Shown here piece after piece: positions 31,152 through 38,396 of a DNA stretch of 38,698 bases. Below the pieces are notes generated by a model that had not been told where the DNA came from, did no database searches, and saw only the letters and a list, made by a program, of their open reading frames with translations. Location: positions 1-38,698 of the forward strand of contig JANYAV010000015.1 of assembly GCA_025361145.1 (NCBI GenBank), in the 5' to 3' direction. The position numbers and the translations under genes are program-made. Positions within the stretch are counted from its first letter, which is position 1, and every line of letters starts with the position of its first letter. The stretch comes from Dehalococcoidia bacterium. GTDB lineage: Bacteria; Chloroflexota; Dehalococcoidia; Dehalococcoidales; UBA3254.

Positions 31152-31679
31152 TTAGCTCTTTCTGGGTTGATTCCTTAGCTGTTCCATTAAGGCCAGAAAG
31201 CCGTTTATGATGGCAGTGGGTGTGGGGGGATTACCGGGGATTTTAATATCAACGGGCAGGATTTTATCCACGCCACCGCGTACAGCGTAGGTGCTCTTGA
31301 AGATGCCTCCATCGCAAGCATCGTCCCCGACTGCGATAACCAATTTTGGGAAGGGCATAACTTCATAGGTTTTTAAAACTGCCATTTCCATATTGAGGGT
31401 GACTGCCCCGGTCACCAACAGGATGTCCGCGTGTTTAGGTGAAGCCACAAAAGAAACACCGAAGCGTTCAATATCGTAATAGGGCGTACTGAGATTATTA
31501 CACTCTATCTCAGTGGCGTTATCTGAACCAGAATCCACCTCGCGGATGGCCAGGCTGCGGCCGAAAATAGAGGATATCTCCATCTTCAGTTTTAGACCTA
31601 TCTCCTCGAAGTTACTATCGCGCCGAATTTGCCTGGGAGCCAGCCTGGCCTTAAATAAATTATGAAACGGTTCAATCAT
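31152..31679 (-). CDS. HycG/NuoB-like subunit of an Ehr-type complex, lacking all [4Fe-4S] ligands
   Basis: The 175-residue protein aligns along its length with the small subunit of group 4 hydrogenases (HycG, HyfI) and NuoB: ATEIECNNLSTPYYDIERFGV, SPKHADILLVTGAVT, PKLVIAVGDDACDGGIF, and VDIKIPGNPPTPTAIINGF. In the family, four Cys bind the cluster nearest the active site. Here the four positions are D53 and T56 (family SCxxC), D120 (family GxC) and N150 (family PGCPP). Only C122, two residues from one ligand site, and C60 remain near. It therefore cannot hold the usual cluster. It is the last gene of the six-gene operon, 97 bp after the large subunit. No clear ribosome site precedes its ATG. 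Confidence 0.9.
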   Translation of the reverse strand: MIEPFHNLFKARLAPRQIRRDSNFEEIGLKLKMEISSIFGRSLAIREVDSGSDNATEIECNNLSTPYYDIERFGVSFVASPKHADILLVTGAVTLNMEMAVLKTYEVMPFPKLVIAVGDDACDGGIFKSTYAVRGGVDKILPVDIKIPGNPPTPTAIINGFLALMEQLRNQPRKS

Positions 31680-35524: not shown

Positions 35525-36459
35525 ACTAACAACTCAAAAACAATCGTTACAAAAGCCAGGGCAAAGGCCAGAATAAAGAAGGTGCGCAGGCCAAATAAAC
35601 GCGATTTAGCCATCACCGACTCAAATACTGCCATAAAGATTGCCAGGATAGAGCCCTTTAATAGAAAAGTCAGCATACCGATCAACAAATTTAAAGGTGT
35701 TACGCTTGCCGCGAGTCCCCAGGGGACTAAAATATTGATCAGGAGAGCCATTAAGAGGGTACTCTTGATGGCGTGAGATAACTCCATCAGCGCCAGATTG
35801 GGGCCGGAGGATTCCAGAATCATAGCCTCGTGAACCATGGTCAATTCCAAATGTGTTTCGGGATTATCCACGGGAACGCGTGAAGTCTCAGTGATCAGGA
35901 TGATAAAGAGCGCGGCGGCGGTTAAAAACAGGGTAGCATTGGTAAGGACCGAAGATCCCAGTGTTGTGGCGAACATCTGGTGTATGTTAAAGGTATTTAA
36001 GACAAAAACCAGCGCTGACACTACAATGATCACCACGGGCTCGAAGATGGCTGAAATGGTCATCTCTCGAGAACTACCCATGCCGCCGAATGAGCTGCCG
36101 GCATCCAGTCCGCCCAGGGCCATAAAGAACTTGGCCATTACCATTAGATAGAGGAATAAAATGACATTGCCGAACCCATAATTGGCAGCCGGGATAAAGA
36201 CCAGTGGGACGCATAATGAAGCCGCTAGTATGAAAATTATATTAATATAGGGCGAAATCAGGGTAATGAACGACGAGTTTAGAGAGACCACACGCTCTTT
36301 TTTAAATAACTTTAATAAATTGAAATAAATCTGCAAAAGGGGAGGGCCGCGCCTGCCCTGCATCTGGGCTTTAACAATTTTTATCAAGCCCATGAAGAGC
36401 GGAGAGACCGCCAGCACGAAAACGGTATTTAGGACGAAATATACAGCGAAAGAGGCCAT
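35521..36459 (-). CDS. HyfC/HycD/NuoH-like membrane subunit
   Basis: The 312-residue protein has about eight segments and the NuoH family's cytoplasmic loop (MQGRRGPPLLQIYFNLLKLFKKE) and TSRVPVDNPETHLELTMVHEAMILESSGPNLALMELS, conserved in HycD and HyfC. It anchors the peripheral arm to the membrane in group 4 complexes and complex I. ATG 36457-36459 is chosen because it overlaps the upstream stop as TGATG and follows a GGGG stretch; a GTG 12 bp earlier is an alternative. Confidence 0.92.
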   Translation of the reverse strand: MASFAVYFVLNTVFVLAVSPLFMGLIKIVKAQMQGRRGPPLLQIYFNLLKLFKKERVVSLNSSFITLISPYINIIFILAASLCVPLVFIPAANYGFGNVILFLYLMVMAKFFMALGGLDAGSSFGGMGSSREMTISAIFEPVVIIVVSALVFVLNTFNIHQMFATTLGSSVLTNATLFLTAAALFIILITETSRVPVDNPETHLELTMVHEAMILESSGPNLALMELSHAIKSTLLMALLINILVPWGLAASVTPLNLLIGMLTFLLKGSILAIFMAVFESVMAKSRLFGLRTFFILAFALAFVTIVFELLV

Positions 36460-38396
36460 CACAAAACCCACCCCGCTACTATGATTAGAATAATCACTGT
36501 AATGAATGAATACAAGATGAAGGTATCCAGGTCCACATTTTGAGCGGCAGAAACCTTGCGGGAGATAGAACGGATAGCATTAGCCACCGGAATATAAAGC
36601 TTCTCTTCAAATATTTTCATGACATGAATGTCAGCCCTGCCGCTTTTAAACACGGCGCCGTATTTATCCCAGAAATTGCGTTCAATAACTTTATCTGTCT
36701 TATAAATCGGTTTAAAAAAGGTCAGGATGGGCTCGGAAAAACCCGCGGCGGTATATTCGGAGTGGGAATCAGGTGTGGGCATTCCGCACGCCCAGGTTTC
36801 CGCCCTGCGGGTTACATGTCCTGAAGCTGCTCTAACTAAAATCACGGTTAGACCTAAAAATATGAATAAGGACAAGGATACCCATAATAAATTAGGCATC
36901 GGTGGCTGGTAGCCCAACCAGCTAAAGATCTGGAAGGAAAAAATACCAAGGCCGACGCATAAAAAGGCCAGTAGGGCAGGACCGATTAGCATGGATTTGG
37001 GGACTTCATGAGCCTGCTGCACTGTATCTGATCTTGGCATGGCCAGAAAGATAACGCCGAAGGCTTTAACAAAACAGGCAGCGGCCAGGGCGCTGGTGAG
37101 GGCAAATAGGGATAGACAGACCACCAGCAGGACGATGACATAATGACTGGGAATGGCGAAAGCCTGGAAAAAAGCCTGGAAAATCATCAGTTCGCTGACA
37201 AAGCCGTTAAAAGGCGGTAAAGCAGAAATGGAAAGCGCGCCGATCAAGAATAAGCTGGCAGTGATAGGCATAGTTTTCACCAGTCCGCCCATCTTTTCGA
37301 TATCACGGGTGCCGGTTTCTTCCACCACCGACCCCGCTGTCAGGAAGAGCAAGCTCTTGAAAATAGCATGATTTAGAGTGTGAAATAGAGAGGCGGCCAG
37401 GCTGAGGAAGGCCAGGTCAGACAGTCCATAGCTATCGAAAATAATATACAAACCCAGACCAATCAGAATAATGCCGATATTTTCGATGCTGTGGTATGCC
37501 AGTAATCTCTTGATGTCGTGTTCTTTTAAGGCGTAGATGACCCCCAGCAGGGCTGAAATAGTTCCGGCTATGAGGATCAGGATGCCCCACCAGAGCTGCG
37601 GATCTAAAACAAAAAGTACGTATCTTACCAAACCGTAAATGGCCACTTTGATCATAACACCGGACATCAGAGCTGAGATGTTGGAAGGGCTGGAGGAGTG
37701 GGCGTAGGGCAGCCATTTATGAAAGGGAATAATACCGGCTTTAATACCAAAACCGCAGAATAAAAAGATGAAAACAAGGGTATTAGTTCCTGCGGTGAGT
37801 ACAGGAGAGGACGCAATAGTAAATGAACCAGTGGCGTTATACAGCAGAATAAAGCCCAACATCAAGAAGATCGTGCTCATCTGCGTCATGATAAAATAAA
37901 AAATTCCGGCCTTGCGGGTCTCTTCTTTCTCATAGTGATACATCACCAGTATGAACGACGAAAGGGATATCAGTTCCCAGAAAAGCAGCTGAGCAAAGGA
38001 ATTGGCCGAAGCGACAAAACAGAGCATGCTTAAAATGAAGACATTCATTAAAGGGACGAAGAGATTACGGCGGATTCCCGAAGTGCTGGCCTCAATGTAA
38101 CGTAATGAATAAATGGCAACACTCAGGGCTACGATTGAGATTACTAATATGAAAAAAGCCGCCAGACGGTCAATCGAAAATGAGAACTGTAATTGAGGGG
38201 CAATCTGAGAAAAAGAATATTGCAAGGGCTGGTTGTTAAGTGCTGTGCGTGCGCCCTCGGAAACAAATATCAGGCAGGCTGCGATAGTCAGCCACAACGC
38301 AGCCTTGCGAGTTATTGAATTGTCTCTGCGGGTATTAACCACACAAATGAGAGCAGATAAAAGACACAAACCTACCCCGATGGCAAATAAAAACAC
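36459..38396 (-). CDS. HyfB/NuoL-like (Mrp antiporter-type) membrane subunit
   Basis: The 645-residue protein has about 16 membrane segments and the Proton_antipo_M core: FCGFGIKAGIIPFHKWLPYAHSSSPSNISALMSG, AYHSIENIGIILIGLGLY, and LFHTLNHAIFKSLLFLTAGSV followed by RDIEKMGGLVKTMP. It ends with a polar stretch and a last hydrophobic helix. It is the first gene of the operon and the second antiporter-like subunit of the membrane arm. The start is GTG 38394-38396 with AAAGG upstream. I saw no convincing promoter in the 140 bp upstream; AATATA (38411-38416, minus-strand TATATT) is a weak -10 candidate. Confidence 0.93.
   Translation of the reverse strand: MFLFAIGVGLCLLSALICVVNTRRDNSITRKAALWLTIAACLIFVSEGARTALNNQPLQYSFSQIAPQLQFSFSIDRLAAFFILVISIVALSVAIYSLRYIEASTSGIRRNLFVPLMNVFILSMLCFVASANSFAQLLFWELISLSSFILVMYHYEKEETRKAGIFYFIMTQMSTIFLMLGFILLYNATGSFTIASSPVLTAGTNTLVFIFLFCGFGIKAGIIPFHKWLPYAHSSSPSNISALMSGVMIKVAIYGLVRYVLFVLDPQLWWGILILIAGTISALLGVIYALKEHDIKRLLAYHSIENIGIILIGLGLYIIFDSYGLSDLAFLSLAASLFHTLNHAIFKSLLFLTAGSVVEETGTRDIEKMGGLVKTMPITASLFLIGALSISALPPFNGFVSELMIFQAFFQAFAIPSHYVIVLLVVCLSLFALTSALAAACFVKAFGVIFLAMPRSDTVQQAHEVPKSMLIGPALLAFLCVGLGIFSFQIFSWLGYQPPMPNLLWVSLSLFIFLGLTVILVRAASGHVTRRAETWACGMPTPDSHSEYTAAGFSEPILTFFKPIYKTDKVIERNFWDKYGAVFKSGRADIHVMKIFEEKLYIPVANAIRSISRKVSAAQNVDLDTFILYSFITVIILIIVAGWVL

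Follow-up and report, generated by a model that had tools for sequence, protein, structure and literature searches.

The six-gene operon found in the window (i.e., the whole stretch of 38,698 nucleotides of Dehalococcoidia DNA that was analysed) is predicted to encode an Ehr (energy-converting hydrogenase-related) complex formed by HyfB, HyfC, HyfE, HyfF, a large subunit and a small subunit, which lacks any predicted electron-transfer centre; its most likely function is an ion translocation that does not depend on redox chemistry, a reading to which we assign a probability of roughly 0.55. The centres lost would be the NiFe site, the proximal or N2-type [4Fe-4S] cluster and the ferredoxin subunit. 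The preliminary description of this DNA dealt with the cluster ligands of the small subunit; judging from the deduced proteins, the loss reaches the whole complex and not the small subunit alone, a point that was then overlooked. It is about an even bet that, in broader terms, an old and widespread branch of complex I and the group 4 hydrogenases turned into a cofactor-free ion-translocating machine, the catalytic module of which would have been rebuilt as a charged gate.

The ORF of the small subunit is intact and its product matches the Pfam family Oxidored_q6 (E 4e-26) and the NCBIfam NuoB model (E 3e-36). The initial claim was that the cysteines that hold the cluster are replaced in this protein by D53, T56, D120 and N150, and that the motifs around these positions persist. 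Both statements were borne out by a residue-by-residue alignment, obtained with phmmer, with HycG from E. coli (7z0s_G) and MbhJ from P. furiosus (6cfw_J), as well as by comparison with Cys-keeping relatives: the four residues align with the cysteines of the CxxC, GxC and PGCPP motifs, and the interval indicated for them (31230–31523) is exactly spanned by the codons of D53 (31523–31521) and N150 (31232–31230). The alignment with HycG, NuoB and Ehr small subunits that had been recommended revealed that the replacement is family-wide, with counts well beyond what chance would produce (Table 1); orthologues with identical replacements are approx. 59–85% identical to the window protein. The small subunit thus lacks the four-Cys proximal [4Fe-4S] cluster of a functional group 4 [NiFe] hydrogenase, and two hallmarks of respiratory complex I, the N2 ligands carried by NuoB and the subunit NuoI, are also missing. 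The proposal that C60 and C122 could form a new site did not hold: in 67 clade sequences C60 appears only once, in the window protein itself, and C122 is invariant (67/67); since C122 is also a Cys in many relatives that have all four ligands (GACACSGG), it is ancestral and not compensatory. These residues were therefore rejected as replacement ligands, and no other Cys of the protein was found at the ligand positions.

Table 1. Location of the operon genes and of the replaced ligand codons in the window; counts at the ligand positions refer to 72 aligned members of the clade.
Feature	Position	Strand	Basis or observation
HyfB/NuoL-like antiporter-like subunit, 645 aa, first operon gene	36459..38396	minus	family matches
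HyfC/NuoH-like membrane subunit, 316 aa	35521..36471	minus	family matches
HyfE-like membrane subunit, 223 aa	34853..35524	minus	family match
HyfF-like antiporter-like subunit, 494 aa	33360..34844	minus	E144, K231 and TM12 K405 kept
Large subunit, NuoCD/HycE/EhrL-like, 526 aa	31777..33357	minus	S233, E236, S520, G523 at the NiFe Cys positions; T231 in place of the N2 second-sphere Arg
Small subunit, NuoB/HycG/EhrS-like, 175 aa	31152..31679	minus	ORF, family matches, alignment
D53 codon, first cluster Cys position	31521..31523	minus	D in 72/72
T56 codon, second Cys position	31512..31514	minus	varies in the clade: T, A, V or P
D120 codon, third Cys position	31320..31322	minus	D in 70/72, E in 2/72
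N150 codon, fourth Cys position	31230..31232	minus	N in 70, D in 1 of 72; one row unreadable

The genes are arranged in the order hyfB, hyfC, hyfE, hyfF, large and small subunit, with the small-subunit gene as the last of the six, and this order is identical in all 42 loci with a complete operon, which belong to two domains of life. A ferredoxin gene is absent from these 42 operons, and the only ferredoxin motif within 1.5 kb of them lay in an ORF running antisense to the large-subunit gene. Upstream of hyfB in the window lies the end of an unrelated ORF that looks, by eye, like the C-terminus of a transporter; no conserved additional partner that could serve as electron donor accompanies the operons, and their flanking genes are lineage-specific. 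In the large subunit the positions of the NiFe cysteines are occupied by Ser, Glu, Ser and Gly in 48 of 49 sequences and by Gly, Glu, Ser and Gly in the other one; none of the four Cys that form the NiFe site of a functional group 4 [NiFe] hydrogenase is present in any of the 49 proteins. Likewise, a second-sphere Arg has been lost: position 231 is T, A, S or V in 49/49 sequences, and its equivalent is Arg in HycE, HyfG, NuoCD, the seven Ehr of the L175–L181 type and 11 of 12 other Cys-keeping relatives. The lost Arg corresponds to R274 of E. coli NuoCD and to R141 of Yarrowia NDUFS2, which lies in the second sphere of cluster N2 (PMC8042128); in the NuoCD sequence used, the annotated start of which is presumed to be four residues later, its counterpart is residue 270. 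The HRGxE motif still contains the other second-sphere Arg (R121 in Yarrowia), and the quinone-site Tyr of complex I is Gly in this large subunit, as in hydrogenases. The AlphaFold model of the large subunit (mean pLDDT 82.9, pTM 0.87) is confident in the core and not in residues 167–199. As far as its deduced proteins reveal, none of the known ligand sets of metal centres is left in the operon. In an Altiarchaeales MAG (L038:14290-19316), the complete operon is followed by another hyfB-hyfC-hyfE-hyfF block; genes for a large and a small subunit are absent from that stretch.

The clade to which the window protein belongs was recovered with a SH-aLRT support of 99 in the small-subunit tree, and with a support of 100/100 in a concatenated tree of the small and large subunits from which the four ligand columns had been removed. 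In the latter, the clade sits within a wider Ehr group that is set apart from Hyc/Hyf (100/99), and it groups with Cys-keeping Ehr devoid of NiFe ligands (100/97); this placement rests on the relatives present in the tree, a set without named reference Ehr sequences. The earlier remark that classic Ehr complexes mostly keep the cluster is right for L175–L181, L190, L191, L196, L198 and L200, all of which have CCCC, and wrong for a group of Chloroflexota (group B; L182–L187 and L207), with D/E, C/T/A, E/D and D/S at the ligand positions, and for L201, another Chloroflexota lineage, with D, V, A and T. When Cys-keeping Chloroflexota were included and the ligand columns left out, the AU test rejected the monophyly of the window clade and group B (p = 0.0009), and also the same constraint plus L201 (p = 4e-5); a single loss common to the window clade and group B was discarded on the first of these values. 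Nevertheless, an earlier AU test with fewer taxa, also with the ligand columns out, did not reject a loss shared with group B (p = 0.235), and the Cys-keeping Chloroflexota were chosen after the first tree had been seen; because of this, the losses in the window clade and in other Ehr-like lineages are regarded as likely independent, and not as proven to be so. Seen in this way, the cluster would have disappeared on three or more occasions, and position 53 would have become Asp in each of them (in one case Glu). The recurrence of an acidic residue suggests a demand for a carboxylate at this position, and the convergence of independent losses on such residues would provide a comparative handle on a role of the cluster site other than electron transfer. 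The members of group B (genomes G417, G364, G349, G438, G445, G067 and G147) have the four NiFe cysteines in the large subunit in 7/7 cases and a ferredoxin domain fused to the small subunit, so they apparently carry a NiFe site without a proximal cluster. In genome G338, the cluster loss of L201 occurs alongside the Cys-keeping paralogue L200, and the Ehr operon at L191:198-4409 includes a tandem pair of hyfB-like genes; its ferredoxin is encoded by a gene of its own, and its small subunit keeps the cluster Cys.

Other residues around the former cluster are also characteristic of the clade. Asp119 is present in 70/72 members, and position 146 is Lys or Arg in 71/72 and Tyr in 56 of 65 Cys-keeping relatives; in group B, Tyr146 is kept and so is the large-subunit Arg in 6 of 7 cases. 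In terms of charge, the window clade lost a positive one with this Arg of the large subunit and acquired another with K/R146 of the small one. The AlphaFold model of the small subunit has the NuoB fold (mean pLDDT 84.8, with the first ligand loop, 54–56, poorly defined) and matches the NuoB, MbhJ and HycG chains with Z values of 16–19. According to our reading, D53, D119, D120 and N150 together with K146 would form a rebuilt salt-bridge network in the place where the cluster was. The main rival to such a network is a metal site: the acidic pocket of D53, D120 and N150, perhaps with D119 or C122, could bind Mg2+, Ca2+, Mn2+ or mononuclear Fe and control the membrane arm, either as a sensor or as a redox site of another kind. 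The nearly invariant O/N-type residues at the three least variable ligand positions, the presence of C122 as a possible metal ligand in all 67 sequences, and the similar residues placed at those positions by the independent losses of group B agree with this idea; however, K146 beside the pocket and the missing large-subunit Arg are equally compatible with the salt-bridge network, and C122 is older than the loss of the cluster. We consider a bound metal rather unlikely.

The operon family had already been noticed: Mhun_1817–1822 (Pmh) of Methanospirillum hungatei has homologues in Methanosarcina acetivorans and M. mazei and a large subunit without NiFe cysteines (PMC2686161), and the operon was later named ehrABCDLS and listed with enzymes that likely reduce ferredoxin (PMC4704411). 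Based on the sections of these papers that were covered, Pmh/ehrABCDLS resembles the window operon in its six genes, the NiFe-less large subunit and the genera in which it occurs, and from genus, gene number and NiFe loss it very probably belongs to the same family as the window clade; those sections present a putative hydrogenase-like complex, and do not mention that the small subunit has lost its cluster or that the ferredoxin subunit is gone. We found no report of this joint loss in the literature covered, although the paper that defined Ehr (Marreiros 2013) lies beyond it. The Ehr of other organisms have been described as lacking NiFe ligands, with an unknown or suspected redox function, and one type was reported from ammonia-oxidising archaea (PMC10432482). 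The latter is probably the type found in the Thermoproteota genomes (L175–L181, taken from the phylum to which a Bathyarchaeota locus belongs), which shares with the window clade the gene order, S, E, S and G at the NiFe ligand positions, and a small-subunit domain 54–60% identical. Unlike the clade, L175–L181, which are among its nearest relatives, keep the four proximal-cluster Cys and the second-sphere Arg, and their small subunit is fused to a ferredoxin domain for a single cluster (CP + CxxCxxC); this N-terminal half-ferredoxin has ligands for one [4Fe-4S] cluster only. Hydrogenase-4 and formate hydrogenlyase from E. coli (Hyf/Hyc) contain homologues of HyfB, C, E, F, G and I in the same order; nevertheless, they have a NiFe site, a proximal cluster and the ferredoxin-like HyfA/HyfH, none of which occurs in the window operon, and neither does HyfD. 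With complex I (NuoB, CD, H, L, M and N) the window complex shares the small-subunit fold and the ion-path residues of NuoL, NuoM and NuoH, but it has no N2, NuoI, NADH module, second-sphere Arg or quinone-site Tyr.

If the complex were still redox-active, an unlinked protein would have to supply the interface of the large and small subunits with electrons, which would be taken up there by a quinone-like acceptor or a cofactor yet to be recognised, as has been proposed for Ehr in general. This possibility is in line with the listing of ehrABCDLS in the covered sections of PMC4704411, with the general suspicion that Ehr couple redox reactions to ion transport (PMC6349859), and with the retained HRGxE motif; it is opposed by the absence of ligand sets and of a conserved partner gene, as well as by the Gly that replaces the quinone-site Tyr, and it seems to us improbable, somewhat more so than the metal site. 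An unlinked redox subunit or a cofactor that does not depend on Cys, such as a flavin or a mononuclear metal, may count against the redox-independent ion translocator. The annotation of ehrABCDLS as ferredoxin-reducing, in the form given in those sections, is contradicted by the ligands deduced from these sequences, and annotating the Ehr genes of this clade in methanogens and Dehalococcoidia as ferredoxin-linked hydrogenases should be avoided.

The ion path of the membrane subunits is well conserved in the clade. The equivalents of NuoL E144, K229, D303, H334, H338 and K342 are invariant in 42 sequences, those of NuoM E144 and K234 in 49, and those of NuoH R46, E157, D213, E220 and E228 in 41. 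At the position of NuoM K265 most members have Asn, a residue also present in E. coli HyfF, and the position of NuoH E216 is variable; the Cys-keeping Ehr also deviate from complex I at these two positions. In TM12 of HyfF there is a Lys in 48/49 clade members and a Glu in 14 of 15 other Ehr. Given an intact ion path without an electron path, the simplest reading is a gradient-driven exchange of the Mrp type. Mrp-type cation/proton antiporters have antiporter-like membrane subunits without redox centres, as is the case here, and by analogy a similar way of working is proposed, in which the conserved ionisable residues would sustain a predicted cation/proton exchange; in contrast with Mrp, the window complex also has NuoH-, NuoCD- and NuoB-like subunits. 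We infer that the six proteins assemble into a complex in which existing gradients would drive, for example, Na+/H+ or K+/H+ exchange; the ions would cross via the two antiporter-like subunits and the NuoH-like subunit, and the cofactor-free module of the large and small subunits would cap the NuoH channel or gate it by conformation. Choline/betaine ABC genes adjoin three of the Dehalococcoidia operons (L049, L052 and L058), and next to the Methanosarcina operons (L044, L048, L061 and others) lie genes for a Na,K-ATPase-like P-type ATPase, for an ABC exporter and for a FilR1-type regulator; these osmolyte and cation transporters are lineage-specific and lend slight backing to the ion-transport reading. 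MrpE was found in one of eight genomes with the complex and in 6 of 53 others, i.e., without a complementary pattern, and a search with PF01899 gave no match in the genome of the window. How electron transfer is coupled over a long distance to ion pumping in complex I is a long-standing question; if the proposal is true, this would be a natural redox-free complex I, in which the membrane arm and the coupling module could be observed without electrons. A natural relative under strong selection and without electron carriers would allow the ion half to be studied alone, and its Methanosarcina hosts can be grown and modified. Pseudo-enzymes have typically lost all their catalytic centres, and the complex, or its large/small module, might accordingly be a relic that serves in regulation or assembly and transports nothing by itself; the invariance of the ion-path residues in 41–49 sequences and the permanence of the six genes together in two domains of life make this quite improbable.

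The extent of the family was determined by a scan of genome contigs with the alignment of the orthologues, which yielded 51 loci: 38 were archaeal (among others, from Methanosarcina, Methanoregula, Methanofollis, Bathyarchaeota, Altiarchaeales, Woesearchaeota, Aenigmatarchaeota and Thermoplasmatota) and the other 13 belonged to Dehalococcoidia/Chloroflexi, including isolate genomes such as those of Methanosarcina (L044, L048, L056 and L066). One of the two search patterns included D53, and for this reason the scan was biased towards that state; pattern-free profile searches of whole genomes gave the same picture, plus Cys-keeping relatives. The loss of the cluster is old and common to Dehalococcoidia and archaea, which had been missed initially. 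The dN/dS comparison called for at the outset gave a value of 0.077 against the nearest orthologue (dS 1.33, dN 0.102; NG86) and a median of 0.095 for 63 closer pairs (NG86), indicating that the small subunit is under selection, and the replaced positions use both Asp codons and both Asn codons. With an intact frame and such values, the early statement that the gene is not decaying is sustained; the further idea of a fold retained by selection after the loss of the cluster is also supported, by dN/dS, by the operon common to two domains and by the structural match mentioned above. As deduced from these comparisons, selection keeps the complex intact across bacteria and archaea. The idea that an ordinary small subunit has decayed, or was altered by sequencing error or mis-assembly, can be dismissed almost entirely, since the same residues occur in the 72 aligned members, isolate genomes and two domains of life among them, with a dN/dS of approx. 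0.08. The genome of the window also encodes an ordinary NuoB that retains its cluster cysteines as far as they are readable (G000:C16:34008-34337, L117), hence this organism also possesses a distinct complex I-like enzyme with a redox function.
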